Notes under the pieces: generated by a model
Databases searched by the model: none
What the model saw: the letters and a program-made list of their open reading frames with translations, nothing else
Told to the model about the DNA's origin: nothing
Program-made: the position numbers and the translations under genes
Part shown: positions 11,589-64,000 of the stretch, piece by piece
Layout of the letters: the number at the start of each line of letters is the position of its first letter
Position numbering within the stretch: the first letter of the stretch is position 1
Origin: Benincasa hispida
Lineage: Eukaryota > Streptophyta > Magnoliopsida > Cucurbitales > Cucurbitaceae
Assembly (NCBI RefSeq): GCF_009727055.1
Contig: NC_052360.1
Span: forward strand, 71,194,323-71,258,322
Direction: 5' to 3'
DNA: 64,000 nt

Positions 11589-11594
11589 AGTTTA

Positions 11595-11612
11595 TGGCGC
11601 TGTTGCCGGGGA
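11595..11612 (+). promoter_or_regulatory. Primer-binding site (tRNA-Asp type), A1
   Basis: TGGCGCTGTTGCCGGGGA matches the complement of the 3' end of plant tRNA-Asp (TGGCGCCGTTGCCGGGGA) except at one base. It lies six bases (AGTTTA) after the LTR end. tRNA-Asp PBS use is typical of several plant Ty3/gypsy (Tat/Athila) lineages. Confidence 0.8.
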
Positions 11613-11813
11613 TTGGTTAACGGTTTATTGTTTCAGTATGTTGTTGGTATTTTGCAGGACAGATCTCATTGTATTGGCTGTTCAACGTGGAGAGCAGTCT
11701 GACGGTTTATAAGTCCTGGTGCTGAACCGGAATTCGAAGTTGACCCTAAGATCGAGCGTACTTTCTTCGCAAGGACATGCCAAAGCCGAATTAGGCGAAA
11801 AAAGGAAACCAAC

Positions 11814-13165
11814 ATGGCGGCAGTACCCGTTGCAAACCAAGGGGATGTTCGATCGGCTGAGGATCCTGTTTTCCTACCAACTGATCACAAATCCCAATGC
11901 GTAATTATGCGGCAACCAATTTATATGATTTTTCGCCTGGAATCTCAAGGCCGACTGTGGAAGAGCATGCGCGTTTCGAAATTAAGCCAGTCATGCTGCA
12001 GATGATTAAAAACACCAGGCAGTTTGGGAGTCTGCAAGGTGAAGACCCACATCTGACCAGCTTTGTCGAGATGTGCGGCGATTTTTCCTTACCTGGCGTG
12101 ACCCCGGAGAATATAAGACTGTATCTGTTCCCTTACACCTTGAGGGACGAGGCTAAGAGGTGGGCTTACTCACTTGAGCCATATAAATCACTTCATGGGA
12201 TCAATTGGTAGAGCAGTTATATGAAGAAGTTTTTCCTACCTGCTGTCAACACAAGGTGACGAAAGGATATTTTGAATTTCGAACAGATGGAGAATGAGAC
12301 CCTAAGCATTGCCTGGGTGCTATTTAGGAGACTGGTGAAAAACTGCCTGCATATTGGGATCCTTAATTGCATCTTGATGGAAATGTTTAATAATGGCCTG
12401 AACAGAGCAACGTAGGTTGTTGCCGATGCCTCCGTGGCAGGAAGTTTTATGGATAAGACATACACAGAGGCTAAAGTCATCCTCGACCACATCTCGCAGA
12501 ATATGGATGACTGGATTAACGATTGATATGGAGGCCGAGGCGCTGAGAGAAGAAAAAGTGAAACAGCCATTGTCCCTACGAAGACAATGACCACGTTGGC
12601 AGCACAAATGGCTACGATGACCTCGATCCTTCAGTCAATGGCAATCAACCAAGGAGCCATTGCTCCACAATCAGCGCAACCTGCTACACCAGTTCAAGTG
12701 GCCGCAATCAGTTGCGTCAATTGTGGAGGGGCTCACGGAGCTGACATGTGCCCATTGAGCCTTCAGTAAGTGTGTTCTATCCAAAACAACCCCTTCAGCA
12801 ACACCTATAATCCGGTTTGGAGGAGCCATCCTAACTTCGGTTGGGGAGGCAATCCCAACCAACGGGGGCCAGTTACTCATTAAGGGTGTAGTAGATGGAA
12901 TCCGCCTTTTCACCACAAACAAGGGCAATCAAGACCGCACAACCAGCAACCATCATCATCTAACGCCTTGGCAAGCTCGATAGAGACACTGCTGAAGCAT
13001 TATATGGATAAAAACGACGCAGTGATGCAAGCCCAATCGTCTTCAATAAGGAATCTGGAGATCCAAGTGGGCCAGCTGGCCTCTAAGCTAAGAAGTCGAA
13101 CACCGGGAACATTGCCCAGCAATTTAGAAGCCCCGGGATCTACAGGAAATGAGCAATTTCCTTAA
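11814..13165 (+). pseudogene. Athila-like gag, A1, frameshifts and stops
   Basis: Fragments in shifting frames give the gag core: RFEIKPVMLQMIKN, then SFVEMCGDFSLPGVTPENIR and LYLFPYTLRDEAKRWAYSLE (11897-12211). A central region follows (LSIAWVLFRRLVKNC; FMDKTYTEAKVILDHIS), then the nucleocapsid CVNCGGAHGADMC (C-x2-C-x3-H-x4-C) near 12715-12755 and the linker SSIETLLKHYMDKNDAVMQA, IQVGQLASKL. Several in-frame stops (for example at 12208, 12766 and 12881) and a frame change near 11895 rule out a functional protein from this copy. The family role is particle assembly and RNA packaging. Confidence 0.85.
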
Positions 13166-13928
13166 GATATTGAGTAGGCAAGTCTGATTGCCTGTGGAAA
13201 TGTGGATTGCGATCACTCATGGCAATGCAATTTTCGGTCCATATCTCAATACTATGTTTAATGCTTTATTGAATTTCTGTCTCTTTGAATTTCGAATTTT
13301 GTCTTCCATTCTTCATTTAATTTTGACTTTATGAATTTATTTCCTCATTTATTTCTTTGCCTTTAATTTTGTCTTGTCTTTAATACCTTGACTTTTTCTG
13401 TAATTAATGCGTTGAGCTTTAAATGGTGAATGATTTAGTAATAAAGAGAAAATTTATTGTCGCAAGTTATAACACTTGCGTTGATAAAAAAAAATCGTAT
13501 AATAAAAATAATTGAACAATTAAAAACAAGAAAGCAAGGCAACAATGGACGCATCTCAAACAAATAAGACCCGCTTTGCGTTCAGCTAACTCAACTGTAT
13601 TAAGTTGAGAGGTGTGTTGCGCTCGTATATGTACTTTGCCCCTCCTTAGTTGAATGCACTATGTTGAGGTATCCTTTAGAAATGCGTTGGTTAAGGGGTG
13701 TATTGCCGGGATATATGCGTTGTTGCCCGTCCTCTGCGAAAATGCAGTTGCGTTGGTGAGCACAATGCGGTAATCTTTATCTTGCGTCCATTCAAATAAA
13801 ATGTTAAAGAAAAATTCTTTTGGAAATTTGAGGGGGGAGTCCAATCGATTCGTATCTCGAAGTAATTATGACGAAAGGACAACTTTATCTGAAATTCCAT
13901 AATGAGGGAGGTGGAACGACGCGCCGCG
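13166..13928 (+). other. Non-coding linker where pol is absent
   Basis: AT-rich sequence with no coding signal, present in the same position in E2 (48684-49490). It contains short repeats around GCGTT and a block near 13620-13780 (GTTGAGGTATCC, GGTTAAGGGGTGT) that also occurs after the integrase of E1 near 57880-58000. The shared block shows that the linker derives from the sequence following pol in the pol-bearing relative. Confidence 0.7.
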
Positions 13929-13959
13929 TTGGGCCCCACCATGACCCAACCTATAAATA
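13929..13959 (+). promoter_or_regulatory. Putative internal promoter ahead of ORF X (A1)
   Basis: TTGGGCCCCACC followed by CCCAACC and TATAAATA (13952-13959), 138 bases from the ORF X ATG at 14090. E2 has the same arrangement with TATAAATA at 49515-49522 and ATG at 49654 (139 bases). TGGGCC resembles the plant site II / TCP-type element. The downstream leader contains AAACCCTAAG, a common plant 5' leader motif. Transcription from here is inference. Confidence 0.55.
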
Positions 13960-14089
13960 CGGCCTCCTCCTTCATTAGGAAGCTCTTTACCTCACTTTGG
14001 CAAACCAGAAACCCTAAGCATCTTGCACCCAGACCTTTCTTTCTCCCCAGCAACTCATGTTTTTACCAGACCTTTCCAAGCTCATATCC

Positions 14090-14941
14090 ATGGCTGACCA
14101 GACTCCCAACCAATTCGCTTCACCTTCCACACCTGACCAAGTAGCCATGCGAGAGGCAGCATTCCTGGCTGCCAGTCGCAGGCTTGCCGCCCAAGCCCAC
14201 ACTATCCCCAGACTCACTAGGAGAGCCTGGAGAAACCCTCTGGCTGTTAGGCCTCCTTTGTTCAAGCGAGGAAAAAGCATCGAGAGCATGCCTATGCCAA
14301 CACCTGCCATCTCAACTGAAAGTGAAAGGAAAAGACGCGATGATGCAAATCCTGAATACCTTGGATCAAGAAGGTGGACTGCTCGAGGCAGGGGTTGTAA
14401 ACCAACCACTGCCTACAGAGGAGGTGGCGGATGGAGTGGTGGCAGATGGAGCAGTGAAAGAAACATCATCACCGCAACCTACCATTCCACCGCCGCAAGT
14501 TGATGACCACACGGTTTGGGTGAAGGCACCTCTGCCCAACCCCAAAACAACACTGGCGAGGCATCGCAGACACAACCCTCCATCACCTCCATGGCTGTTG
14601 AGTTAGCAAAAATGAGAACCCTCTTCTCCCAACAACAACTCTTCTCTCAACAACAACACGTCTTCAACCAGCGATTTGAGGTAGTAGTAGAGCACATTAA
14701 TAATATTCAATGCAGTGCCGCCAAATCAAGAGAGGTGCTGATCAACATGCAGCGCAACATCTATAAAGTCCATATGCACCAGAGAATGATTGCGGTGCGT
14801 AATCAAGAGTACTTCAACTTTCTCACCGCATATCTTCATGATCCAATGGTGCCCATACATCTCCGACAGCACTTAAATTTTGAAGAAGCGCCCCCTGTAC
14901 CACCTCAAAATCTGCCAAATCCCCCTACTCCTCAACCATAA
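14090..14941 (+). pseudogene. ORF X of element A1, internally deleted
   Basis: From the ATG at 14090 the frame gives MADQTPNQFASPSTPDQVAM, then a basic N-terminal region to about residue 90, and runs on to a stop at 14503. Another frame gives the C-terminal part: Q-rich LFSQQQLFSQQQ, then QRFEVVVEHINNIQ, NQEYFNFLTAYLHD and a proline-rich end (TPQP) with a stop at 14939-14941. Compared with E2, the charged middle and the C-terminal globular domain (about 640 codons) are missing, with the deletion near 14400-14470. I cannot assign a function. Confidence 0.7.
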
Positions 14942-16107
14942 TATTTACACTTTCTTCCAATACGATTTTTTTATGTGACCATTCTTTATTTGTATTTAAT
15001 TCATTTATTCTTTGTAAGTTAATCAAATTCTTTGACTCTTGTACAGGCAATGGAAAATTTTGTAATGCGTTCATTTATACTTATTTGTATACATTGTTAA
15101 TATTCAATACAATTAGAGTACATATTCACTCCATTTTTGCCTATTCCTTTTTCTTTATCATCCTTTGTCAATTGTTGTAATGTTCTTAATCTTTTGTTTT
15201 TACGATCTTCATTGTGTTGCTATGATGTAGTACATGTTTATACTTAGAAACATTTCTCAAACTTTGTGATTTTTTACTAACACTTAGTTAATTCTTAGTT
15301 TAGCAGTACTTTACCTTTTATCTTTCAAAGTTCTGCTCAAACCTTCTTTTTGAAATTTTCTTCTAAGTGTTTGTCTAATCTCTCCAAAAAAACGCAATGA
15401 AGACCTTACTCTTCTTTAAATTTAGGGGTGGGGAAGGTCTAAGCAGATGATTAAGAAAATGTGTCTATTTAAAAAAAAAAATTATGCAAAACTTCAATGC
15501 AGTGCAAGGGAAAACCTCAAAACTGTCCGAACCTGATAAGAGTTTAGTTGTGAAAGGAGCCTGCTCGTAGTTGGATGTTCGTATGACACCTGTAGCAGCA
15601 AGCCAAAACGAAGGTAGGTTTCCAAGAACAACGCAATATGAAAAAAAATATAATAATAAAATAATAAATGCAAGAGACAACTTCTCTAAAATTCATGAGT
15701 TAAAGTTGAAATTGGCACACCACCATAGTTAGATGTCCGCATGACACCTGTGGGGGATAAGCCAAAACAAAAAGTGTAACCATGATCAGCAGTCTCTGAA
15801 AAAATAAATGACGAAAAGTTTTGCTCACCACATGTAGATATATCAAGTTGTTTTGACAAAGAAGAGATAAACATTCTATTCTGAAAATCTAGAAAAGCAT
15901 CTTTGTGCAGAATTTTGTCATATAGAAGAATAAAGTAAGACTTGCTAAGAATTAGTAAGGATAGACGGAAAGTACGATGTCAAGAAATGTGCCTAAGTAT
16001 AACATTTGGAGCAACCAATCTTCGCAAAAATAGAGGATAGGAATTGAGCATGATTGCCTAAGTAGAAGATATGCTTGAGGACAAGCATATATCTAAATTT
16101 GGGGGTG
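14942..16107 (+). other. 3' untranslated region of A1 with two polypurine tracts
   Basis: Non-coding. Contains the internal tract AAATTTAGGGGTG (15418-15430) and the terminal tract AAATTTGGGGGTG (16095-16107) directly before the LTR. Between them are two copies, about 158 bp apart, of a 40-bp motif beginning TAGTTGGATG (15567; diverged at 15725). Confidence 0.75.
16095..16107 (+). promoter_or_regulatory. Terminal polypurine tract (plus-strand primer), A1
   Basis: AAATTTGGGGGTG abuts the LTR start TGATAAC at 16108. Plus-strand DNA synthesis would be primed here. The same 13 bases precede the LTRs at 53828 and 59208. Confidence 0.8.
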
Positions 16108-16402
16108 TGATAACTTGTAGAAATACAAGTTATTTATGCCAACTTATCTAGATATTGCGGCCAAAAGTTAGTGAATATGCACCGATTGTATGAAAATTAG
16201 CATAGAATTACAATAATTATAAATGATCACAATTACACCCACTAATATCATAAAGATGGAAGACAAGCCAACTTTTATTTTGTTTTGCAGGAAACCAAGT
16301 CATCGCTTGCGCTCAAGACTCACGAGAAATTGATCAACGCATCTCTGTCACATTGCGCCCGTCAATTAACAATGAAAAGACGATTACCATAATGACGGCG
16401 AA
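16108..16402 (+). repeat. Start of the 3' LTR of A1, cut by inversion
   Basis: The first 295 bases of a family A LTR, with an intact terminal hairpin. At 16403 the sequence switches to the opposite strand of the same LTR family. Confidence 0.85.
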
Positions 16403-17643
16403 ATGTTGTGGTGAAACAAAGTTTGATGTAACGAACGCAAGGTTGCTTCCATGTCTGGAAGTACTACTCGCTTTAGCTAACGCGCTCTTTTGACCTTCTC
16501 TCGATAGATTAGAATGACATCTTCACTTCTGCTCTCACAGGTGAAGATGTCGTCTAGCATGCTTTAGCTAAACATATTTTATAACTTTAATACATATTAA
16601 GTTCTTGGTGATTCATATTTCTCATCAAGGGATTAAGAAAACATCATGATGAAAGTGACTAATGGGTGAACGGAAACAGACAGAGAATGGTAAACGAAAT
16701 CTATCGAAACATTCAATATTTCTACCAAGTATTTGATACATGATGTATGACTGTAGAGATAAAGAAAACATGAAATAAAGTGAAAGGGAGATAGAATAGA
16801 TACAATCAGGTGCCAATGTTTTGGCACATATTCAATGGAGATCTGCTTTCCAGATAGGATGGTTTTGATGGTAGGAAGAGCTTCCCTCTTCAGCTTGCTC
16901 CACCGGTAGTAGGGGTCTCTGCACAGAGCTTCGATCAGACATATAACTGGTCAGATCTGAGATTTACCTCTCGGCCTTATCTCTTTCTCTTCCCGAATTT
17001 CTTCTTTTCAGCACTCAGCTCAGCCTTTTTCTCTCTAAAATCGTACAACACTTAGCCAAGTATCAAATAGCATAATTTTCTCTGAATTCGCTGGGGTGTT
17101 TGTAGGAGCAGATCCTTTAACTCCGGCCATGTTGTCCCCACTTGACGGTTATGGTAATTCCGCAGATGAAGGGATATTATTCCTTCTATTATGCAATCAG
17201 ACCATCAATTCTGCATAATCGTTAGTTGTGCACGTGTCTCAATCCTCCCCTTTTGCGTTGCTCGGTTGAATCTTTTGATCATAGGTTCGCATGCGGTGTT
17301 TGTTTTATTACCGCATCCGGTTGTAGCATAGCTCTAGATCGACTATCCCATTACACCATTACTTCGGTAATTGTCTCTTCAAGGTTGATCGATGGGTGCA
17401 ATGTGATAGAGATGCGTTGATTAGTTTCTCATGAGCCTTGAGTGTAAGCGGTGACTTGGTCTCCTGTAAAACAGAGTAAAGTTTGGCTTGTCCTCCATCT
17501 TTTTGGCATTAGTGGGTGTAATTGCAAACATTTATAATTATTGTCATACAAAGTTAATTTTCATACAATTAGTGCATAATTACTAACTTTTGGCTGCAAT
17601 ATCTAGATAAGATGGCATAAATTTGCATTTCTACAAGTTATCA
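16403..17643 (-). repeat. Family A LTR, minus strand, 3' end missing
   Basis: The start of this LTR (reverse complement) is at 17643, and it runs down to 16403, where it meets the plus-strand LTR. The TATA position reads TGTTTGTAG on the plus strand, so the TATA box is mutated. The leader hairpin (16516-16526 with 16541-16551) is perfect with a compensated pair. The last third of the LTR is absent. Confidence 0.8.
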
Positions 17644-18163
17644 CCCAACTCTTCAGTTTACCCAGTAGCCCCACCTTCACCATTAGCATCATCACCACAA
17701 CCCACCATTCCACCGCTGCAAGTTGATGACCCACACGATTTGGGTGAAGGCACCTCTACCCAACCCAAAAACGATGCTGGCAAGACATCGCAGGCATAAC
17801 CTTCCATCACCGCCATGGCTTGCTGAGTTAGCAGAAATGAGATCTCTCTTTCTCCCAACAACACTCTTCTCTCAACAACAACACCTCTTCAACAACGATT
17901 TGAGGTAGTAATGGAGCGCACTTGATGAGATTCTACGTAGTGCACCACATCAAGAGAGGCACTGATCACATGCGCGCACATTTATAAAGTCCATATGCAC
18001 TAAAGAATGATTGCAGAGCATAATCAAAAGTACTTTCAACTTTCTTACTGCATATTTCATGATCCAATGATGCCTCCTAATCTCTAAGCATCACTTAAAT
18101 TTTGAAGACGCGCCTCCTGCACCACCTCAAAATCCGCCAAATCCCCCTGCTCCTCAACCTTAA
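17644..18163 (+). pseudogene. ORF X C-terminal fragment
   Basis: Broken frames match the last 170 or so codons of ORF X: PQPTIPPLQVDDPHD, then FNFLTAYF and HLNFEDAPPAPPQNPPNP, ending in a stop at 18161-18163. Several frameshifts and stops are present. The fragment begins right at the minus LTR boundary. Confidence 0.7.
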
Positions 18164-19365
18164 TATTTACACTTTCTTCCAATAACGATTTTTTTTTTAT
18201 CCGGCCTATTATTTAAATTGTATTCAAATTCTTTTATTATTTGTAAAGTAATCAAAATTCTTTGACTCTTGTACAGGCAATAGAAAATTTTGTAATGCGT
18301 TCATTTGTAATTTATTTGTATACTTGTTAATAGTCAATACAATCAGAGTATATATTCACTCCACTTTTTACCAGTGCCTTTTTCTGTATCTTCCTTTGTC
18401 AATTTTTGTAATGTTCTTAATCTCTTATTTTTACGATCTTCATTGCGTTGCAATGATGTAATATATGTTTCCACTTAGAAACATTTTCCCTACTTAGTAA
18501 ATTCTGACTAACACTTGGTTAACTCTTAGTTTAGCAATACTTTACCTTTTATCTTTCAAAGTTTTGCTTAAACCTTCTTTTTGAAATTTTCTTATAAGTG
18601 TTTGTCTAGTCTCTCCAAACAACGCAATGGGGACCTTGCTCATCTTTAAATTTGGGGTTAGGGAAGGTCTAAGCAGATGAGATCAAGATTATGCTGTAGT
18701 TAAGAAAATGTGTCCATTTTCATTAAAAAAAAATGCAAAACTCCAATGTCAGCGCAAGGAAAAACCTTAAAAATATTCCCAACCTTATAAGAGTTTAGTT
18801 GTGAAAGAAGCTTGCTCGTAGTTGGATGTTTGTATGACACTCGTAAGAGCAAGACAATACGAAGGTGGGTTTCCAAGAACGACGCATTACAAAAAAGAAA
18901 AAAATGAAAAAAAAAGAAAAAGAAAAAGAAAGAAACAAAAACAAATATAAAAGAATGCAAAAGACAACTCCTCTGATCCTCATGAGTTGAAGTTGAAATT
19001 GGCACACAACCGTAGGGATAAGCCAAAATAAAGAGTGTAACCATGACCAACAGTCTCTAAATAAAGAGATGACGCAAATTTTTGCTCACCGTAGATATAT
19101 ACATCAAGTTGTTTTGACAAAGAAGAGATAACATTCTATTTTGAAAACTAGAAAAGCAACTTTGAGCAGAATTTTGTCATATAAAAGAATAAAGTAGGGC
19201 TTGCTAAGAATTAGCAAGGATAGAAGAAATTGCGATGTCATGTAATATGCCTAAGTGCAGCATTCGGAGCAACCAATCGTTGCAAAAATAGAGGAAAGGA
19301 ATTGAGCATGATTTCCTTAGTAGAAGATATGCTTGAGGACAAACATATATCTAAATTTGGGGGTG
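18164..19365 (+). other. Family A 3' untranslated region
   Basis: Non-coding, collinear with 14942-16107. Internal tract AAATTTGGGGTTAGGG at about 18647 and terminal tract AAATTTGGGGGTG at 19353-19365. A poly-A/GA stretch lies at 18895-18950. Confidence 0.75.
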
Positions 19366-21153
19366 TGATAACTTGTAAAAATACAAGTTATTTATGCCAC
19401 CTTATCTAGATATTGCGGCCAAAAGTTAGCAAATATGCGCCGATTGTATGAAAATTAGCCTAGTATTACAATAATTATAAATTATTGCAATTACACCCAC
19501 TAACACCATAAAGATGGAAGACAAGCCAAATTTTACTCTGTTTTGCAAGAGACCAAGTCACCGTTTGTGCTAAAGACTCATGAGAAACTAATCAACACAT
19601 CTCTGTCACAATGCGCCCATCAATCAACAATGAAGAGACGATTACCGCAATGACGGCGCAATGCGACAGTCGTTCCATAGTTGTGTTTCAACTGCATGCG
19701 ATAATAAAAATAACATCGCATATGAACCCATTATCAGAAGATGCAGCTAAGCAACACAAAAGCAAAGGATTGAAACACGTGTACAACTAACGGTTGTGCA
19801 GAATTGACGATCTGATTGCATAATAGAAGGAATAATATCCCTCCATCTTCAGAATTACCATAACGATCAAGTGGGGACCATAAGGATGGAGTCAAAGATC
19901 TGAACCTATAAATACCCCATTGATTTCAGAGAAAAATATATGCTACTGGATACGAGGTAAGTGTTGCAAAATTGTTGAAAGAAAAGGCTGAGCTGAGTGC
20001 TTAAGAGACGAAATCTAGGAAGAAGACGAGATAAGGCCGAGAGGTGAATCTAAGATCTAATCTGCCAAACACCCGATTGAAAGCTCTGTGCAAAGATCCT
20101 TGCTACCGATAGAGCAAGCCTGAGGGGGAAGCTCTTTCTGTCATCAAAACCATCCTATCCGGCAAGAGGATCTTCATCAAATCAGTGCCAAGATATTGGC
20201 ACTTGTTTGTTTCTGTCTATCTTTTTCATCGTTGTACTTCACTATTCTTTATCTCTTAATTCACACACCATGTATCAAACGCTTAATAGAGATTTTAAAT
20301 GTTTTGATAGCTTCCATTTACCATTTTCTGTCTATTTTCGTTCACCTGTCAATCACTTTCTTCATGATGTTTTCTTAATTCCCTGATAAGCAATATGAAT
20401 TAACCAAGTACTTAATTTATGTTAAAGATATAAAATGCATTTAGCTAAGGCATGCTAGACGGCATCTTCACCTGTGAGAGCAGAAGTGAAGGTGCCATTT
20501 TGATCTATCGAGAGAGGGTTAGAAGAATGCGTTAACTAAATCAAGTAGTACTTCAAGACATTGCAGCAACCTTGCATTTATTATGTTAGTCTCTGTTTCA
20601 CCACAGACATGTGGGAGCACGGCCAATCACCGAGAGGTGTACACCAAGAGAAGAGCGAAACAGTATTTGTAGCTTCAATGCGATTAAGAACTTGCGTTGT
20701 TTATATTATTTGTCTCTCTTTCTATTCTATTCATAAGACTTGTCGCCGCATCCCACGTCTTTGCACAACTTTCACAGCCAGCCTTGACCCCAGCATCTTG
20801 TACATGAAGCCTTTATCTTGTATCATCTAGCTTGGGTTTACTGTATTTTTATTTTAATATCGCATCTTTACTGGTTTACTTTACTTTATTGCAATTTATA
20901 TACCTATACACATATACTTTTAAAGATTGAAAACCTGGTTGCATATATCATGAACGTACCACAATAACCTAAACCAGTCCCCGTGTTCGACCTCGGATCA
21001 CATCGAGAAACTTGCGGTGGAATTACATTTGGTGCCATTGTAAGGAAACTTGTGACAGCGCTTGGCATACTACATGAACATCAATAATTAAGGCATATTC
21101 AGAAGTAGTATCGCATCATCATGAGCATAGAACATCATACATCCTTAACTATC
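19366..21153 (+). repeat. Family A LTR, nearly complete
   Basis: Starts TGATAACTTGTAAAAATAC (loop AAAA instead of GAAA). TATAAATA at 19909-19916 and leader hairpin 20461-20471 with 20486-20496. It ends near CATCATACATCC, some 20 bases short of the expected CA end, and is followed by copia sequence without a PBS. Confidence 0.8.
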
Positions 21154-21189
21154 CAAAAGTGAGTCAACAATCATCAACCATGCAATAAA

Positions 21190-31198: not shown

Positions 31199-32200
31199 AT
31201 GCTGAGAAGTGGAAAACGTAGAACCGAGCAACCCTCTGGGAATGAAAGTGAATGTTCCTCAAGCCATCCAAAAGAAAAATCCAGAGAGGAAGAACAAATC
31301 GATAAATTCACCCAAAGACTTCATGCAAGCTTAGAAAATATACAACCTGATCCCGAAAAGAAATATGAGATAGAACGATTAAAGGCATTGGGAGCCACAA
31401 ACTTTGAAGGAACAAAGGATCCTACAGATGGAGAATCATGGATCAATCAAATAGAAAAATGTTTCGAGGTGATGAGATGTCTTGAAGTAAGTCTTGCCAC
31501 ATTCTTACTACAAAAACAGGCGAAAGATTGGTTGAAGCTACTAAAGAATAGGAGAGGAAATCAAGAAGAAATATGTTGGGAGGAGTTTCGAAAAGCATTT
31601 TTTGAAAGATTCTATCCCCGATCATTCAGGGATATGAAACAAGATGAATTCCTACAGCTCATGCAGGGAAACATGACTGTAGCGGAGTATGAATTAAAGT
31701 ATACGGAGTTATCCAAGTATGCTTTAAATATAATGGTGGATGAAAAAGAACGTTGTCGAAAGTTTGAAACAGGATTGAGACAAGAGATTCAAACTCCTAT
31801 TACAGCAACTGCAGAATGAAGAAAATTTTCAAGACTAATAGAAGCCGTGATGAGAGTAGAAAGAAGTTTAATGATGGAAGAAGTAAGACCGGAAAGAGAC
31901 TCATCAATGAGTCGGTGGTGGAGGGAAGAACCAAGAAATTTTACCCCCAGGGTAGAAAGCAAAAGTGGATGGAAAAGAAAAGGAATTACCAACACTAAAG
32001 CAGACCCTGAACGGGAGAGCCAAATAAAGGAGTCAATGGTGAGCGTTAACCAAAGACCAAGATGTCCGATCTGTAATAAATATCACTGGGGAAGATGTTG
32101 GGAGCAAACCCAAGAACGATCACACACATGTTTTAAGTGTGGCAGACCAGGACACTTTAAACAAGAATGTCCTCAGTTGATGGATACTGGAAATGTATAA
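31199..32200 (+). pseudogene. Gypsy gag with one internal stop
   Basis: MLRSGKRRTEQPSGNESECS at the start, then the gag core: YEIERLKALGATNFEGTKDP (residues about 60-80), SWINQIEKCFEVMRCLE, FLLQKQAKDWLKLL, FERFYPRSFRDMKQDEFLQL and YELKYTELSKYALNIM. A TGA at 31817-31819 (TAE*) interrupts, and the same frame continues to the nucleocapsid with tandem knuckles CPICNKYHWGRC and CFKCGRPGHFKQEC, ending at 32200. One point change would account for the stop. The next 285 bases hold only traces of the gag-protease linker (IYGLTQDRED), then the LTR. Confidence 0.85.
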
Positions 32201-45313: not shown

Positions 45314-47116
45314 TGATAACTTGTAGAAATACAAGTTATTTATGCCACCTTATCTAGATATTGTGGCCAACAATTAGTGAATATGCACCGATTGTATGAA
45401 AATTAGCCTAGAATTATAATAATTATAAATGTTCGCAATTACACCCACTAACACCATAAAGATGGAAGACAAGCCAAATTTTACTCTGTTTTGTAGGAAA
45501 CCAAGTCATCGTTTGCGCTCAAGGTTCACGAGAAACTGATCAACGCATCTCTATCACATTGCGCCCGTCAATAACAATAAAGAGACGATTACCGCAATGA
45601 CGGTGCAATGCGATAGTCGATCCAGAACTGTATTTCGACCACAGGCGGTAATAAAAAAAACACCACATATGAATTCACGATCGAAAGATGCAGCTGTGCA
45701 ATGCAAAAGCAGAGGAATAAGATATGTGTACAACTAACGATTGTGCAGAATTGACGGTCTGATTGCATAACAGAAGGAATAATATCCTTCCATCTTCGGA
45801 ATTACCATAACCATTAGTGGGCACCACAAGGTCGGAGTCAAAGGCCAGCACCTATAAATACCCCATAGATTTCAAAGAAAATTTATGCTACTTGATACGG
45901 GGCTAAGTGCTGCTAAATTGTTGAGAGAAAAGGCTGAGCTGAGTGCTTAAGTGAAGAAATATGGGAAGAAGACGAGAGAAGGTCGAGAGGTGAATCTCAG
46001 ATCTAACTTGACATACACTCAATCAGATGCTCTGTGCATAGATCTCTGCTATCGATGGAGCAAGCCTGAGAGGGAAGCTCTTCCTACCATCAAATCCATC
46101 CTATTCGGCAAGCAGATCTCCATCGAATCTGTGCCAAGACATTGGCACTTGTTTGTATCTATTCTGTCTCTTCATTGTTGTATTTCACTGTCTCTTTATT
46201 TCTTCATTCACACACCATGTATCAAACGCTTAATAGAGATTAAATGTTTCGATAGCTTTCATATTCCATTCTCTGTCTATTTTCGTTCACTCGTTAATCA
46301 CTTTCTCCATGATGTTTTCTTAATTTCCTGATAGTTAAAATGAATTAACCAAGAACTTAATCTGTGTTAAAGATATAAAATGCGTTTAGCTAAGGCAAGC
46401 TAGACGGCATCTTCACCTCTGAGAGTAGAAGTGAAGATGCCATTCTGATCTATTGAGAGAAGGTTAGAAGAATGCGTTAACTAAAGCGAGTAGTATTTCC
46501 AGACATGGAAGCAACCTTACGTTTATTACTTCAGTCTCTGTTTCACCAAAGACATGTGGGAGCGCGGCCGATCACTAAAAGGTGTACGCCAAGAAAAGAG
46601 CAGAACAGTATTTGTAGCTTCAATGCAATTGAGAACTTGTGTTGTATATATTAATTGTCTTTTTCTTTCTATTCTGTTCATAAGACTTGTCGCCGCATTC
46701 CACGTTCTTTGCATAACCTTCGCAGCCAGCCTTGACCCCAGCATCTTGTATCATGAGCCTGTATCTTGTGTCATCTAGTTAGGTTTACTGTATTTCATCT
46801 TATTATCGCATTTTTACTACTTTACTTTACTTGACCGCAATTTTAATACTTGTACAAACATACCTTTAAAGATTGAAAAACCTGGTCGCATATATCATGA
46901 ACATCTCACAATAACCTAAAACAGTCCCTGTGTTTGATCTCAGATCACACCGAGAAACTTGCGGTGGAATTACACTTGGTTCCATCGTAAGGAAACTTGT
47001 GACAACGCATGGCATACTACGTGAACATCCATGCTTAACGCATATCTAGAAGTAGTATCACATCATTCGAGCATAGAACATCATACATCCTAGTGTTAGC
47101 CTATACATCATCATCA
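45314..47116 (+). repeat. 5' LTR of E2
   Basis: 1803 bp, TGATAACTTGTAG to CATCATCA. Perfect terminal hairpin 45316-45339; TATAAATA at 45853-45860; perfect 11-bp leader hairpin 46406-46416 with 46431-46441. Donor-like AG|GTGAAT near 45985. Confidence 0.88.
45853..45860 (+). promoter_or_regulatory. LTR promoter TATA box (E2)
   Basis: TATAAATA in the context ACCTATAAATACCCC. It should drive the full-length E2 RNA. The copy in the 3' LTR is at 54368-54375. Confidence 0.75.
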
Positions 47117-49653: not shown

Positions 49654-52579
49654 ATGGCTGACCAAACCCCAAACCAATCTGCTTCACCTTTCACCCCTGA
49701 ACAAGTAGCAATGCGAGAGGCAACATTCCTGGTTTCCAGTCGCAGGATTGCCGCCCAAGCCCACACTGTCCCTAGACTCACCGAGAGAGCTCGGTGAAGT
49801 CCTTTGGCTATTAGGCCTCCTATGTTCAAGAGAGGAGGAAACACCGAGAGCATGCCTATGCCAACACCTACCGTCTCCACTGAAAGTGAATGGAAGAGAC
49901 ACGATAATACAGAGGTGTTTAGCATCATCCTGAGTACCTTGGAGCAAGAAGGTGGACTACCAGAGGTAGGGGTTGTAAACCAACCACTGCCTATGGAGGA
50001 GGAGGCGGTGGTAGTGCCAGATGGAGTAGTGAAGGATGGAGTAGTGGTGGTTGAAGAAGAAGAAAGGGGAATGATGTTTTGGTCCCAGAGACTTAAGAGA
50101 CAACTGTCATCACAGAAGCCTATGACAGACCTCCAAGAAGAGAAGAAGAAGAGATTGCGATCAAGGAAAGAGAAGAAGAAGAGATTGTAATTGAGGAGGC
50201 CAAGGAAGCTGAGGTTGCATTGGAGACCCCTGACATTGCGATGGAGAAGGTTGCATGGGATACGCAACCAGAAGGGGCTGAGAAGAAAAAGAAGAAGAAG
50301 AAGAGCAAGGGAAAGAAGGGAGAGGCAAAATCTTCACATCATCGCAAGGAAAGAAAGAACAAAGAGAAAAAGGATGATGATGAAAATGAAGAGGCCAAGA
50401 AGGAGAAAGAAGAGAGAAAATTGCGCCGACATGAAGAGAGGTGCCTAAGAAAAGAATAAGAAACAAGGTAGAGGGCTGCGAGCCCTGAGAAGGATGGAGA
50501 ATCAACCTCCGTAAGGGAGGATAGGGGGGAAACGGTGCAGTTGATGGAACCAACGCAATCTAAAGAAAAGCAATTGGTTGCGATGGATGAAAGAGAAGAA
50601 ACAGAAGGAACCCTCCTAATGCGGCGTCACAGGGAGAATGCGCCACAAGGGTCCAACATTGACCCTCAAAGATTAATTTTGGCATTGGAAGAGGAAGAGA
50701 GAAAAAGAAAAAAAGAAGAAAAGAAGCAAGAAAAGATGGTGAGAGGCAAGCTCATCATTGCAGAGGGAAATAGAAGAAGAAGATTGGAATTCAAAGAGAT
50801 GCGAAGCAACAATGAGCTTGCCAGAATTGAAGGGATTTAGAAGCGCGAGGAGGAACAGCACCTATTGCTGGCCTCTGAGCAATTTGAAGAGGAGTTTGCA
50901 AGAGAAGAAAGAGAAGAAGAAGAAGAAGAGAGGAGGAAGAAAGAACAAGAGGACAGATTATTGTTGGAAGAGAAAAGGATGAAGTGCGAAGCCAACAAGA
51001 GGCGCTTATATAAGAGCAAGGGCAAAGAACTCGCTGAGCGCAAGAAAAAAGAACAGCACAAGGAGCGGGAAAAGAGACTAAGGCAAGCAGCCTGCCTTGC
51101 GTTGGCAAAAGGCAAGGCTATAGCAGAAAGCAGCGAACCCACAGTGACTAGGAAGCGATCATCAAAGAAAAAGGAGAACGATGATATGTTGATCGAGATG
51201 GGCTTCTTTCCTACGCCAAATCCACTACCTGACCTCGTCACGAGCGTAATTATGGAACATGGGTGGGACACAATCTTCCAGTGCCCATCCATCATAGTGC
51301 CTCAGGTAGTGCGAATCTTTTACCGTGGGTGGCTACATGGAGATATAAATGCGGTGACCTTTAAGAGAGAAACAGTATACTTCAGCGCGAAGGACATCAA
51401 TGAAATTTATCAGATGAAGGACAACTCTGATGCACCAGGGAACAAGATTATTGATGATCCTACAGAAGAAAAGATGGCAGACGCACTGAGGGTATTAACG
51501 CAACCGGGCACAAGATGGTTGGTTTCACTTAATAGCATCCGCACCCTAGAGTCCAATCCTTGATTCAGGAGGGAAGGCTCTGGATTTATCAGGTCAAGAA
51601 GCGACTGATCCCAACAATGCACGATAGAACTGTATCAAGGGATTGGGTAATGGTCGCATACAGCATCGCTCTTGGCATTCCTATCGACATGGGGCAGTTG
51701 ATCGCAAGGCAGATCAGAGTATTGGTGGGGTATATACGGGGGCAGTACTTCTTCTCATGGATCGTTTGAAGTTAATGCCTAACTATGGGTGTAGGCATTG
51801 ATGAAGAGCCCATGCTAGAAGTCCACGGCCTCATCAACATCAAAATTTTGAGGTTGCTTCTAAAAGATTCCCCAGACTGCCTCGAGCTGCCAGCAAAGAG
51901 GCCTACGATCGATTTGAATGCGCCTCAAGAGCCAAGGCCCAAAAGAGAGCGAAGAAAAGGTCCAAGAATCACCAACGCAAAATCCGGAACCTATGGACCC
52001 TCTTCCTTTATTCATCCGGCCTCCAAGCCCTCCGACCCGCCAGCGTAACCCTCTTCTCCCTTACACGAGCATTTTACAAACTTTCTTCTTGTCCCCAACT
52101 CTCCTGTTGTTCACCCAGTAGCCCCATCTACACCAACAGCTTCATCACCGCAACCCACCATTCCACTGTCGCATATTGATGACCCACATGATTTGGGTGA
52201 AGGCACCTCTGCCCAACCCCAAAACGATGCTGGCGAGACATCGCAGGCACAACTATCCTTCACCTTCATGGCTATTGAGTTAGCTGAAATGAAAACCCTC
52301 TTCTCTCAATAGAAAGAGCTTGTCTCTCAACAACATCCCTTCTTCAATCAACGATTTGAGGTACTAATGGAGCGCATTGATGAGATTCAACACAGTGTTG
52401 CGACTTCAAGGGAGGCGCTCATCAATATGCAGGGCAGTGAGCATAAGATCTTCCTACACCAAAGACAGCGTAATTAAGAGTATTTTAATTTCCTTACCGC
52501 ATATCTGCATGGTCTGATGGAGTCTCCGCATCTAAGGCAACACTTATTGTTTGATGACGCTTCTGTTACACAACCTTAA
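49654..52579 (+). pseudogene. ORF X of E2, full-length form, about 975 codons, damaged
   Basis: Starts MADQTPNQSASPFTPEQVAM. Regions in order: N-terminal basic part (residues 1-90, one TGA at 49795), acidic EEEAVVV stretch, then a long Lys/Glu-rich probable coiled coil (about 50220-51130; AEKKKKKKKSKGKKGEAK, LEEEERKRKKEEKKQEK, EREEEEEERRKKEQEDR). A globular part follows (51180-51860) with DDMLIEMGFFPTPNPLPDLV, QCPSIIVPQVVRIFYRGWL, INEIYQMKDN, IYQVKKRLIPTMHDRTVSRD, VAYSIALGIPIDMGQLIARQ and HGLINIKILRLLLKDS. The C-terminus is Q-rich and ends in FNFLTAYLHG and a stop at 52577-52579. Stops at 49795, 50190, 50457, 50838, 51560 and frame changes near 50195 and 51560 kill this copy. The globular part resembles, from memory, the plant domain called putative plant transposon protein. 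It sits where Athila elements carry an env-like ORF. Function unknown. Confidence 0.75.
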
Positions 52580-53827
52580 CAGCCTCCGACGGATCCTCTG
52601 CTCCTCAACCTTAATGTTTACACTTTCTTCCAATACTATTTTTTTATGCGGCCATTCTTTACTTTGTATTCAATCCATTTTTTATTTTGTAAGTTAATCA
52701 AATTTTTTTTTACTCTTGTACACGCAATAGAAAATTTTTGTAATGCGTTCATTTGTACTTTATTTGTATACTTTGTTAATATTTAATACAATTAGATTAC
52801 ATGATTTACTCCACTTTTTTGCTTTTTTCTTTCTCTTTATCTTCCCTCGATTAATTTTTGTGACATTCTTAATCTTTTATTTTTACAATCTTCATTGTGT
52901 TGCTATGATGTATTATATGTTTATACTTAAAAGCATTTCTTATACTTAGTAATTTCTAAATAACACTTAGTTAATTCTTAGTTAGCAGTACTTTACCTTT
53001 TATCTTTCAAAGTTCTGCTCAAACCTTCTTTTTGAAACTTTCTTCTAAGTGTTTGTCTAGTCTACCCAAACGACGCAATGAGAACCTTGCTCATCTTTAA
53101 ATTTGGGGGTGGGGAAGGTCTGAGCAGATGAGATCAAGAATATGCAGTATTTAAGAAAATGCGTCCATTTTCATATACCAAAAAAATAAAAAAAAAAAAT
53201 TATGCAAAACTCCAATGTCAATGTAAGGAAAAACTACAAAATTGTTCCCAACCTGATAAGAGTTTAGTTGTGAAAGGAACCTGCTCGTAGTTGGATGTTT
53301 GTATGACACCCGTAGGAGCAAGCCAAAACGAAGGTGGGTTTCCAAGAACAATGCAGAAAAAAATATATATAGAAAAAAATAATAAAAGAATGCAAGAGAT
53401 AACTCCTCTGAATATCATGAGTAAAGTTGAAATTGGCACACAACCGTAGTTGGATGTCCGCATGACACCCATGGGAATATGTCAAAACGAAGAGTGTAAC
53501 CATGATCAATAGAATCTAAGTAAAATAAATGACGCAAAGTTTTTGCTCACCGCATATAAATACATCAAGTTGTTTTGAAAAAGAAGAGATAAACATCCTA
53601 TTTTGAAAACTAGAAAAGCATCTTGGAGAAAAATTTTTTACATAGAAGAATAAAGTAGGGCTTGCTAAGAATTAGCAAGGATAGAAGGAAATTGTGAGGT
53701 TAAGTAATGTGCCTAAGTGTAACATTCAGAGCAACCAATTGTCACAAAAATATAGGATAGGAATTGAGCATGATGGCCTTAGTAGAAGATATACTTGAGG
53801 ACAAGCATATATCTAAATTTGGGGGTG
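52580..53827 (+). other. 3' untranslated region of E2 with two polypurine tracts
   Basis: Non-coding. Internal AAATTTGGGGGTG at 53099-53111 and terminal AAATTTGGGGGTG at 53815-53827, identical 13-mers 716 bp apart. The TAGTTGGATG motif occurs at 53288 and 53447. Confidence 0.78.
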
Positions 53828-55593
53828 TGATAACGTGTAGAAATACAAGTTATTTATGCCACTTCATCTAGATATTGTGGCCAAAAGTTAGTGAATATGC
53901 ACCGATTGTATGAAAATTAGCCTAGAATTACAATAATTATAAATGTTCACAATTACACCCACTAACACCATAAAGATGGAAGACAAGCCGAATTTTACTC
54001 TGTTTTGCAGGAAACCAAGTCACCGCTTGTGCTCAAGGTTCACGAGAAACTGATCAACGCATCTCTATCACATTGTACCCGTCAGTTAACAATAAAGAGA
54101 CGATTACCGCAATGATGGCACAATGCGACAGTCAATCAAGAACTGTATTTCGACCGCATGCGGTAATAAAAACAACACTGCATGCAAATTTACGATCGAA
54201 AGATGCAACTGTGCAATGCAAAAGCGGAGGATTGAGACATGTGTACAACTAACAGTTGTGTAGAATTGGCAGTCTGATTGCATAAAAAAAGGAATAATAT
54301 CCCTCCATCTTCGGAATTACCATAACCATTAGTGAGGACGACAAGATCAGAGTCAAAGGTCTGCACCTATAAATACCCTATAGATTTCAGAGAAAATTTA
54401 TGCTACTTGATACGGGGCTAAGTGCTGCTAAATTGTTGAGAGAAAAGGCTGAGCTGAGTGCTTAAGTGATGAAATATGGGAAGAAGACGAGATAAGGCCG
54501 AGGGAAGTGAATCTCAGATCCAACCTGCCATACATCCGATCAGAAGCTCTGTGCATAGATCTCTGCTACCAGTGGAGCAAGCCTGAGAGGGAAGCTCTTC
54601 CTACCATCAAATCCATCCTATCCGGCAAGTAGATATCCATCAAATCTGTGCCAAGACATTGGTACTTGTTTGTATCTGTTCAGTCTCTTCATCATTGTAT
54701 GTCACTGTCTCTTTATCTCTTCATTCACACACCATGTATCAAACGCTTAATAGAGATATTAAATGTTTCGATAGCTTTCATATTCCATTCTCTGTGTATT
54801 TTCGTTAATCACTTTGTCCATGATATTTTCTTAATTTCTTGATGGTTAATATGAATTAAAAAAGGACTTAATCTGTGTTAATGATATAAAATGCATTTAG
54901 CTAAGGCATGTTAGACGACATCTTCACCTGTGAGAGCAGAAGTAAAGATGCTATTCTGATCTATCGAGAGAAGGTCAGAAGAATGCGATAACTAAAGTGA
55001 GTAGTACATCCAGATATGGAAGAAACCTTGCGTTTATTACGTTAGTCTCTATTTCACCACAGACATGTGGGAGCGTGGCCGATCACTGAAAGGTGTATGC
55101 CAAGAGAAGAGCAGAACAGTATTTATAGCTTTAATGCAATTGAGAACTTGTATTGTTTATATTAATTGTCATTTTCTTTCTGTTTTGTTCATAAGAATTG
55201 TCTCTGCATTCCACATTCTTTGCATAACCTTTGCAGCAAGCCTTAACCCCAACATCTTGTATCATCTAGCTTAGGTTTACTGTATTTCATCTTATTATCA
55301 CATTTTTATTGCTTTACTTTACTTGACCGTAATTTTAATACTTGCACAAACACACCTTTTAAGATTGAAAAACCTAGTCATATATATCATGATCATCTCA
55401 CAATAACCTAAATTAGTCTCTGTGTTCGACCTCGAAACTTGCGGTGGAATTACACTTGGTTCCATCATAAGGAAACTTGTGACAACGCATGGCATACTAC
55501 ATGAACATCCATGCTTAACGCATATCTAGAAGTAGTATCGCATCATTCGAGCATAGAACATCATACATCTCAGTGTTAGCCTATACATCGTCA
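53828..55593 (+). repeat. 3' LTR of E2
   Basis: 1766 bp. Terminal hairpin has one mismatch (ATAACGTGTA). U3 palindrome ACCGCATGCGGT at 54153-54164, TATAAATA at 54368-54375. Ends CATCGTCA, then E1 pol resumes. Confidence 0.87.
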
Positions 55594-60827: not shown

Positions 60828-61020
60828 ATTGTCGAAAAAAAAAATCATATAAACTCCAATGCCAGCACGAGGGAAAAAAACCAAACCTGATAAGAGTTAA
60901 GTCGTGAAAGGAACCTGCTCGTAGTTGGATGTTTGTATGACACTTGTGGGAGCAAGCCAAAACGAAGGTGGGTTTCCAAGAACGACGCAATATGAAAAGA
61001 AAAAAATAGGAAGGAAAAAA
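60828..61020 (+). other. Misplaced 3' untranslated fragment
   Basis: Matches part of the family A 3' region (TAGTTGGATGTTTGTATGAC; CCAAAACGAAGG), now lying between an LTR end and the middle of ORF X. Either a rearrangement or an assembly join. Confidence 0.6.
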
Positions 61021-62412
61021 AAAAAGAAGAAGTAAAGGGAACACCCCTAATGCGGCGTCACAGGTAGAATGCGCCGCAAGGGTCCACAATTGACCCTCAA
61101 AGATTAATTTTGGCATTGGAAGAGAAAGAGAGAAAAAGAAAAGAAGAGGAGGAGAAGCAAGAAAAGATGAAGATGAGCAAGGTCATCATCGCAGAGGGGG
61201 ATAGAAGAAGAAGATTGGAGTTTGAAGAAATGCGACGCAACAATGAGCTTGCCAGACTTAAAGGGATCCGGAAGCGCGAGGAGGAACAGTGCCTGTTGCT
61301 GGTCTCTGAGCAATTCGAAGAAGAGCACGAGAGAAGAAAGAGAAGAAGAAGAGAGAAGAGAGAAGGAAGAAGGAAGAAGAGGACAGATTGTTGTTGGAGA
61401 AGAAAAGGAAGAAGCGTGAAGCCAATAAGAAGTGCTTATATAAGATCAAGGGCAAAAAGCTCGCTGAGCATGAGAAAGAAGAGCAATGCAGAGAGTAGGA
61501 AAAGAGAGAACGACAAGCAGCCCACCTTGCATTGGCAAAAGGCAAGGCTATAGCAAAAAGCAGGGAACCCACGGTGGCCAAGAAGCGATCATCAAAGAAA
61601 AAGGAGAACGATGATATGTTGATCGAGATGGGCTTCTATCCTATGCCGAATCCACTACCTGACCTCATCACGAGCGTAATTTTGGAGCACAGGTCCGACA
61701 CATTCTACCAGTGCCCATCCATCATAGTGCCTCAGGTAGTACGAAGCTTTTATCATGGGCGCTTACATGGAAATAGGGATGCAGTTACCTTTAAGGGAGA
61801 GACAGAATCCTTCAACGCAAGGGACATCAACGAAATTTATCAAATGAAGGACAACCCTGATGCGTCAGGGAACAAGATTATTGATGTTCCCATAGAAGAG
61901 CAGATGGAGGACACGTTGAAAATACTAGTGCAATCGAGCAAAAAGTGGTCGGTCTCGTTCAAAGGCATCTGCACCTTGGAGTCCAAGTCGTTGCTACCGG
62001 AGGGAAGGCTCTGGGTTTATTTGGTCAAGAAGCGGCCGATCCCAACAACGCATGACAGAACCATATCAAGGGATCGGGTCATGGCCGCATACTGCATAGC
62101 CCGAGCATTCCTATCGATGTTGGGTAGTTGATCGCGAGGCTGATCAGAGCATTAGTGGGACATGTTCGAGGGCAATACTTCTTCTAGTGGATCATTTCAA
62201 GTCTATGTCTGACTATGGGTGTAGGCATTGATGAGGAGCCCATGCCAGAAGTCCATGGCCTCATCAACATAAAAATCTTGAGGATGCTTCTTAAAGATTC
62301 TCCACACTGCCCCGAGCTACCAACAAAGAGGCTTGCGATCGATTTGAATGTGCCTCAAGAGCCAAGGCCCAAAAGACAGCGAAGAGAAGATAAGGGAAAA
62401 GAGAAGGTCCAG
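61021..62412 (+). pseudogene. ORF X fragment: charged middle plus globular domain
   Basis: Collinear with 50600-51960 of E2. MRRHR, LEEKERKRKEEEEKQEK, GDRRRRLEFEEMRRNNELAR, then frame changes near 61325 and 61500. The globular part is the longest intact stretch in the window (61532-62131): KRSSKKKENDDMLIEMGFYP, QCPSIIVPQVVRSFYHGRLH, GETESFNARDINEIYQMKDN, LLPEGRLWVYLVKKRPIPTT and SRDRVMAAYCIA. The next part (62215-62412) gives HGLINIKILRMLLKDSPHCP. It ends exactly at adapter sequence, so the stop at 62413-62415 is not natural. Comparison with E2 shows amino-acid conservation of the globular part greater than of the charged part. Confidence 0.72.
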
Positions 62413-62415
62413 TAA

Positions 62416-62447
62416 CTGTCTCTTATACACATCTAGATGTGTATAAG
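62416..62447. other. Nextera mate-pair junction adapter, partial (32 of 38 bp)
   Basis: CTGTCTCTTATACACATCT (the 19-bp Tn5 mosaic end) followed by the first 13 bases of its reverse complement. This is library adapter, not plant DNA. The join between its flanks is therefore suspect. Confidence 0.97.
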
Positions 62448-62621
62448 TACCCGATCGGAAGCTTTGTGCATAGATCTCTGCTATCGGTGGAGCAAGCCTG
62501 AGAGGGAAGCTCTTCCTACCATCAAATCCATCCTATCCGGCAAGCAGATCTCCATCGAATCGGTGCCAAGACATTGGCGCTTGTTTGTATTTTTTCTATC
62601 TCATTAATCGTTGTATTTCAC
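62448..62621 (+). repeat. Family A LTR fragment between two adapter copies
   Basis: 174 bases matching the transcribed part of the LTR (compare 10482-10655). Bounded on both sides by adapter sequence, so its position here is most likely a chimera. Confidence 0.85.
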
Positions 62622-62659
62622 CTGTCTCTTATACACATCTAGATGTGTATAAGAGACAG
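62622..62659. other. Nextera mate-pair junction adapter, complete 38 bp
   Basis: The 19-bp mosaic end CTGTCTCTTATACACATCT immediately followed by its exact reverse complement. That precise 38-bp duplicate is the circularisation junction made by the Nextera mate-pair kit. Confidence 0.99.
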
Positions 62660-62760
62660 GTCCAATGGTGCCCCTACATCTCCGACAGCACTTAAATTTT
62701 GAAGAAGCGCCCCTTGCACCACCTCAAAATCCGCCAGATCCCCCTGCTCCTCAACCTTAA
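62660..62760 (+). pseudogene. ORF X C-terminal 33 codons
   Basis: VPLHLRQHLNFEEAPLAPPQ, then NPPDPPAPQP and a stop at 62758-62760, matching the end of ORF X in A1 (14850-14941). It begins right after the adapter, so it should not be read as joined to the fragment ending at 62412. Confidence 0.7.
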
Positions 62761-63893
62761 TATTTACACTTTCTTCCAATACGATTTTTTTTTATGTGAC
62801 CATTTTTTATTTGTATTTAATTCATTTATTCTTTGTAAGTTAATCAAATTCTTTTACTCTTGTACAGGCAATGAAATTTTTTTTAATGCATTCATTTATA
62901 CTTATTTGTATACGTTGTTAGTATTCAATACAATTAAAGTACATATTCAATCCATTTTTGCCTATGCCTTTTTCTTTATCATCCTTTGTCAATTGTTGTA
63001 ATGTACTTAATCTTTTGTTTTTACGATCTCCATTGTGTTACTACGATGTAGTACATGTTTATACTTAGAAACATTTCCCAAACTTAGTAATTTCTGACTA
63101 ACACTTAGTTAATTATTAGTTTAGCAGTACTTTACCTTTTATCTTTCAAAGTTCTGCTCAAACCTTCTTTTTGAAATTTTCTTCTAAGTGTTTGTCTAAT
63201 CTCTCCAAACAATGCAATGAGGACCTTGCTCTTCTTTAACTTTGGGGGTGGGGAAGATCTAAGCAGATGATTAAGAACATGCATCTATTTTCATATAAAA
63301 AAAAATTATGCAAAACTCCAATGTCAGCGCAAGGGAAAACCTCGAAACTGTCCCAACCTGATAAGAGTTTAGTTGTGAAAGGAGTCTGCTTGTAGTTGGA
63401 TGTTCGTATGACACCTGTAGGAGAAAGCCAAAACGAAGGTAGGTTTCCAAGAACAACGCAATATAATAATAATAATAAAAATGAAATAATAAATGCAAGA
63501 GACAATTCCTCTGAAATTCATGGGTTAAAGTTGAAATTGGCACACAACCGTAGTTGGATGTCCGCATGACACCCGTGGGGATAAGCTAAAACGAAGAGTG
63601 TAACCATGATCAGCAGTCTTTAAAAAAATAAATGACGAAAAGTTTTGCTCACCGCATGTAGATATATCAAGTTGTTTTGACAAAGAAGAGATAAACATTC
63701 TATTTTGAAAATATAAAAGAGCATTTTTTAGCAGAATTTTGTCATATAGAAGAATAAAGTAAGGCTTGCTAAGAATTAGCAAGGATAGACGGAAAGTGCG
63801 ATGTCAAGAAATGTGCCAAAGTGTAACATTCGGAGCAACCAATCGTCGGAAAAATAGAGGATAGGAATTGAGCATGATTGCCTTAGTAGAAGA
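62761..63893 (+). other. Family A 3' untranslated region
   Basis: Collinear with 14942-16075. Internal tract AACTTTGGGGGTGGGG near 63238. It breaks off in TAGTAGAAGA, about 40 bases before the expected terminal polypurine tract. Confidence 0.75.
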
Positions 63894-64000
63894 TGTTGGA
63901 TCGATATGACAACCCTAGAGGAGGGGTGAATAGGGTTTAATTAAACTTTTTTTTCTAAATTAACCCAATTAAACTAATTAATATACTTTTTATAAATAAT
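63894..64000 (+). repeat. Probable start of another LTR, runs off the window
   Basis: TGTTGGATCGATATGACAAC followed by CCCTAGAGGAGGGGTGAATA replaces family A sequence abruptly. TG start and the abrupt join suggest the 5' end of an inserted LTR. The motif with GGGTGAATAGGG is one I recall from plant retrotransposons. Too little sequence to classify. Confidence 0.45.

Follow-up and report, generated by a model that had tools for sequence, protein, structure and literature searches.

Mate-pair circularization adapters border a retrotransposon LTR piece in an assembly of Benincasa hispida

Adapters and retrotransposon pieces at the locus

The window, which is the whole 64,000-nucleotide stretch of Benincasa hispida DNA that was analyzed (C12:71194323-71258322), is rich in copies of one type of LTR retrotransposon. 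Towards the right end of the window, two pieces of such an element enclose positions 62416-62659, where a short LTR piece is positioned between two adapter sequences. The features of the locus, and the copy from another element of the window (element C) to which they were compared, are as follows.

61021-62415, plus strand: left flank; internal part of an LTR retrotransposon, decayed and referred to as "ORF X", with a TAA at its end directly before adapter 1
62416-62447, no strand assigned: junction adapter 1, incomplete, with the first 32 of 38 bases (the 19-base mosaic end and 13 bases of its reverse complement)
62448-62621, plus strand: 174-bp retrotransposon LTR piece between the adapters, recognized by its LTR homology and very probably a misplaced filler
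62622-62659, no strand assigned: junction adapter 2, a complete 38-base palindrome
62660-63894, plus strand: right flank; 3′ portion of an element of the same kind, recognized by homology to other copies
50590-53790, plus strand: comparison copy in element C, with homologues of the left and right flanks 551 bp apart and no LTR piece between them

The sequence at 62622-62659 is a 38-mer identical to its own reverse complement, in which the 19-base mosaic end of Tn5 directly abuts the reverse complement of the same mosaic end. It agrees with the Nextera mate-pair junction adapter in 38/38 bases. The sequence at 62416-62447 agrees with the start of the 38-mer in 32/32 bases and differs from the full adapter in that the last six bases are missing. 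The coordinates and description of the two adapters in the initial annotation were exact. A scan of the window for the mosaic end, with up to three mismatches tolerated, found three matches, all of them exact, at 62416-62434 (+), 62622-62640 (+), and 62641-62659 (-), and none elsewhere in the window. Shuffled controls (100 shuffles) had a mean of 0.06 matches, and 0/100 reached three; an exact 19-mer is expected by chance in 64 kb of even composition with a frequency of about 5e-7. The 12-mers of the 38-mer were searched across the window, and none was found outside the spot at 62416-62659.

Other adapter types were also searched for in the window. There were no matches to TruSeq, P5, P7, or Nextera index-side adapters, with one mismatch (for 13-15 bases) or three allowed, and none to small-RNA, full Cre-lox, or PacBio adapters. 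A part of loxP, 13 bases with one mismatch at 31700-31712, is taken as a chance match. A candidate TruSeq start at 62453 (GATCGGAAGC) was rejected; it lies inside the LTR homology, and nearly the same sequence is present in the copy at 10487. A literature search with the peptide translated from the adapter found no paper.

According to an excerpt of PMC4248319, the mosaic end is a hyperactive end used in vitro in place of the natural ones; an excerpt of PMC5765368 describes it as a synthetic combination of the outside and inside ends found in nature. According to a section of PMC6298255, tagmentation adds the junction adapters of mate-pair libraries, the DNA is circularized and sheared, and the reads are trimmed by NxTrim; the data set published there contains such libraries of 2, 5, and 12 kb. 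By contrast, a section of PMC7357533 prints the same 38-mer as a biotinylated ring adapter, with which sheared fragments of ~4 kb are circularized by ligation. The sequence at the locus is that of a mate-pair circularization adapter. The initial annotation ascribed it to Nextera, and Illumina's Nextera kit is the likely source; however, the sequence is no proof of this origin, as the identical 38-mer serves as a ligated ring adapter in the other protocol.

The stop codon of the ORF X fragment had been noted as lying at the junction. A TAA is present at 62413-62415, inside the poorly aligning last bases of the left flank, and it touches adapter 1; however, it includes no base of the adapter, and the codon consists of non-adapter sequence.

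Homology breaks and the order of the element pieces

The filler at 62448-62621 is 92.1% identical to 46022-46196, 91.4% to 10487-10660, 89.4% to 54536-54713, and less similar to other LTR copies. The homology of the copy at 10487-10660 covers exactly 62448-62621, from adapter edge to adapter edge. The remaining LTR copies start to match the filler at least one base later, and those at 46022-46196 and 54536-54713 match on to 62630, nine bases into adapter 2, because the natural LTR at this place resembles the first nine bases of the adapter (62622-62630). The filler both begins and ends inside the LTR, at neither LTR end. On the other side of adapter 2, the homology of the right flank to other copies starts no more than one or two bases from the adapter end. 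Thus, in three of the four arms, homology is lost at an adapter edge or only a few bases away from it. In the fourth arm, to the left of adapter 1, the BLAST homology ends at 62389, so that 26 bp remain up to the adapter, and the alignment of the last bases is poor. No sequence identical to the 174-bp piece, and thus no exact source, is present in the window, where the best copy is the one with 92.1% identity, in the 10 kb upstream, or in the readable part of the 20 kb downstream, the rest of which is N; a downstream copy located ~8.7 kb past adapter 2 (L132 7325-7498) is 91.4% identical.

Element C extends over ~45.3-55.6 kb of the window, and its LTRs, at ~45.3-47.1 and 53.8-55.6 kb, are 89.2% alike over 1,806 columns. 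In a BLAST comparison, 61021-62389 of the left flank shares 84.1% identity with positions 50590-51959 of element C, and 62659-63894 of the right flank shares 82.8% with positions 52511-53790, with the two pieces in the same order and on the plus strand as at the 62-kb site. The right flank (62661-63894) is also 92.4% identical to 14842-16070 and 81.3% identical to 18063-19328. The homologues of the flanks in element C are separated by 551 bp, whereas positions 62390-62658 lie between them in the local copy. The stretches 14464-16405 and 17644-21143 align to element C without interruption, beginning at 52142 and 52094, respectively, and thereby include the right-hand portion of the 551 bp. An LTR piece at the corresponding place is absent from element C over the whole span and from the stretches 14464-16405 and 17644-21143 over the right part. 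By comparison with these copies, the flanks are non-adjacent to the sequence that they border, as the LTR piece between ORF X and the tail is missing from them at that place. The joining of repeat pieces that other copies do not hold adjacent is a property expected of a mate-pair junction adapter.

The initial annotation regarded the whole order of ORF X fragment, LTR piece, and ORF X tail as a probable chimera. The part of this claim that concerns the LTR piece holds, with the LTR piece as false filler; however, the ORF X fragment is followed by the tail in element C as well (50590-51959, then 52511-53790). On the basis of sequence comparison, the outer order is probably true and only the filler at 62416-62659 false, because the same order and strand are found in one other copy, element C.

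A piece of the left flank, translated with stops read as X, matches the Pfam family PF20167, "Putative plant transposon protein", with an E value of 1.2e-10 and 42 bits, where the curated cut-off is 45. A piece of element C between the 5′ LTR and ORF X has a weak match to Retrotrans_gag of 23.7 bits relative to a cut-off of 24.1.

The surroundings of the locus have further irregularities. The local copy stops matching the other copies at ~63894, shortly before the start of their LTR (53828 in element C), and is followed by non-matching sequence at 63895-64000, for which an insertion or a further false join is a possible explanation. A piece at 60835-61028, beside the place where the ORF X fragment begins, is similar to the tail of this element type (80% to 63297-63493), so that the fragment has an irregular upstream border as well. 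An apparent element at 9782-21157 has LTRs that are 85% alike, at ~9782-11577 and 19366-21157, and contains an inverted LTR copy at ~16403-17644. The window includes a run of exactly 100 N at 2061-2160 and a single N at 9466; from the run of 100 N it follows that the assembly was scaffolded with gaps.

Adapter copies in the source assembly and in public sequences

The assembly from which the window originates comprises 912,946,352 bases in 1,791 contigs. An exact search for the 38-mer in the whole assembly, which the initial annotation had proposed as a check, found 9,991 copies, a mean of one per 91 kb, and the control search with the reversed 38-mer found 0 copies. There was no further copy in the 10 kb upstream of the window and in the readable part of the 20 kb downstream. 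Among the first 50 of the 9,991 places, which were listed and are all within the first 6.1 Mb of C1, many form close pairs or exact tandem loops, and 9 of the 49 pairs of neighboring starts are at most 300 bp apart. A close pair of adapters, as in the window, is usual in the assembly. Twenty stretches of the genome, 17 of them at the listed places, were sampled non-randomly and picked towards clusters; 21 own-genome loci, some of them overlapping, contain 32 complete and three incomplete junctions.

The exact 38-mer was also detected in seven stretches of viral contigs and at least 120 stretches of prokaryote contigs, which together provided a public set of 127 loci (not deduplicated) with 154 complete junctions. 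It is present in assemblies of Enterococcus sp. 10A9_DIV0425, Scytonema tolypothrichoides VB-61278, and Ideonella sp. MAG2. As at the locus studied here, many of the fetched loci have several sites within a few hundred bases, and incomplete sites like adapter 1 occur among them. Of 65 distances between neighboring sites, complete or incomplete, 46 are shorter than 600 bp, with the sites directly adjoining in two of these cases, in loci whose shortness favors short distances. The named public remnants are from prokaryotes, whereas the copies reported here are in a 913-Mb assembly. Matches to the adapter of 38-42 bases with 97.6-100% identity are found in the plasmid records NZ_MF918372.1, NZ_MF589339.1, NZ_KY978628.1, NZ_MT039157.1, and NZ_CP032357.1, at up to six places per record.

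Origin of the sequence between the flanks

The stretch 62416-62659 is almost certainly an assembly artefact, formed by untrimmed mate-pair reads that bridged a gap in a repeat. The proposal of the initial annotation that mate-pair circularization adapters were left in the assembly is strongly supported by the exact synthetic sequence, its 9,991 copies in the assembly, and the homology breaks at three of the four arms. In the preparation of a mate-pair library, fragments of some kilobases would have been circularized through the 38-bp adapter, and a read across the adapter would lead from the far end of a fragment through the adapter to the near end. Such reads, if untrimmed, would have entered the assembly or, as we infer, its gap filling. 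One read would have continued from the end of ORF X through adapter 1 into the LTR piece, and a second one from the LTR piece through adapter 2 into the tail of the element. The two reads may have overlapped via the repeated LTR sequence or via the palindromic adapter, and together spanned the gap in the repeat. By analogy with the layout of element C, adapter 2 fits a circle of ~2.2 kb, from the tail at 52511 to the 3′ LTR at ~54.7 kb, and adapter 1 fits a circle of ~5.9 kb, from the 5′ LTR at ~46.0 kb to ORF X at ~52.0 kb. The circle order is an easy fit at both junctions, because LTRs stand on both sides of such elements.

Circularization predicts that the left arm of a junction recurs downstream and the right arm upstream, both on the same strand. 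The 308 arms of the public set were reduced to 235 by dropping 12 at edges and 61 that contained adapter or N. A second copy in the locus is lacking for 179 of these arms, three have several, and 53 have a single one. All of the single second copies (53/53) are on the same strand, and 44 are in the predicted direction, with nine against it. The predicted direction was found in 20/28 cases at distances of at least 300 bp and in 24/25 nearer ones. The far cases are the fairer test, because in most of the near ones a single sequence is present on either side of the adapter, so that both arms record one event and the direction is almost given. In the source genome, 29 junctions from 18 loci provided 56 arms (58 less two with adapter or N), of which 33 have no second copy, 11 have several, and 12 have a single one. 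The single copy is on the same strand in 11 of the 12 arms, and nine fit in both strand and direction, whereas two have the wrong direction and one the wrong strand. The counts in both sets are not independent, since one duplication is often registered by both arms of a junction.

Ordinary tagmentation leaves one mosaic end, which is followed by index adapters. By contrast, the two head-to-head mosaic ends at the locus imply circularization, and P5, P7, TruSeq, and Nextera index-side sequences were not found in the window at the mismatch limits given above. These two observations argue against a standard tagmentation library but not against the ligation of ring adapters, for which the identical 38-mer and the ~4 kb fragments in PMC7357533 are a precedent. 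It is unlikely that the adapters were derived from either of these sources instead of the Nextera mate-pair kit, and the fault would still be that of an untrimmed adapter. A real nested insertion of the LTR piece in ORF X, with only the adapters at its edges false, is very improbable. Nested and truncated copies of this LTR retrotransposon family do occur in the window; however, the LTR piece is bounded by adapters at positions inside the LTR instead of at its ends, and the insertion would have to coincide with the missing counterpart of the 551 bp of element C.

The number of 9,991 copies is one that a natural repeat could also attain, which would be in agreement with a Tn5/IS50-like or other transposon that has these ends and was inserted and spread. 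The 19-base length of the ends and the transposase system are shared with the natural outside and inside ends of Tn5/IS50. The duplication of the target by Tn5/IS50 is 9 bp long. Among the 29 own-genome junctions, none (0/29) has eight or nine equal positions in the flanking 9 bp, and the maximum of 7/9 was reached in one. Moreover, the two ends are directly joined, which leaves no body of a transposon, and the window site lacks a target duplication. Similarity among the 100-base arms of the same junctions (56 arms) was found in 41 pairs, of which 36 are within one locus and only five join different loci. The 38-mer is also present in unrelated bacteria, plasmids, and viral contigs. The mosaic end itself is a hybrid made in the laboratory from the outside and inside ends that occur naturally, according to excerpts of PMC4248319 and PMC5765368. 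The lack of a body and of a target duplication, together with the synthetic end, in the main refutes a natural Tn5-like element, and its probability is negligible.

With untrimmed mate-pair reads as the source of the stretch, the locus is a technical error without biological novelty, and its use is limited to the quality control of the assembly. With its recognition, one false nested insertion can be struck from the record. It is fairly probable that raw mate-pair reads used in gap filling made thousands of false joins in the assembly, which could be mistaken in the annotation for nested insertions, broken genes, and tandem repeats. Before use, any broken gene, nested repeat, or short tandem repeat that lies close to one of the 9,991 adapter copies should be checked.

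At C1:2861251-2861789 (L135 1252-1790), four complete adapters are arranged with an exact spacing of 167 bp and with three identical 129-bp segments between them. This array looks like a gap-filling loop, in which the assembler looped through the palindrome, and not like a natural tandem repeat.
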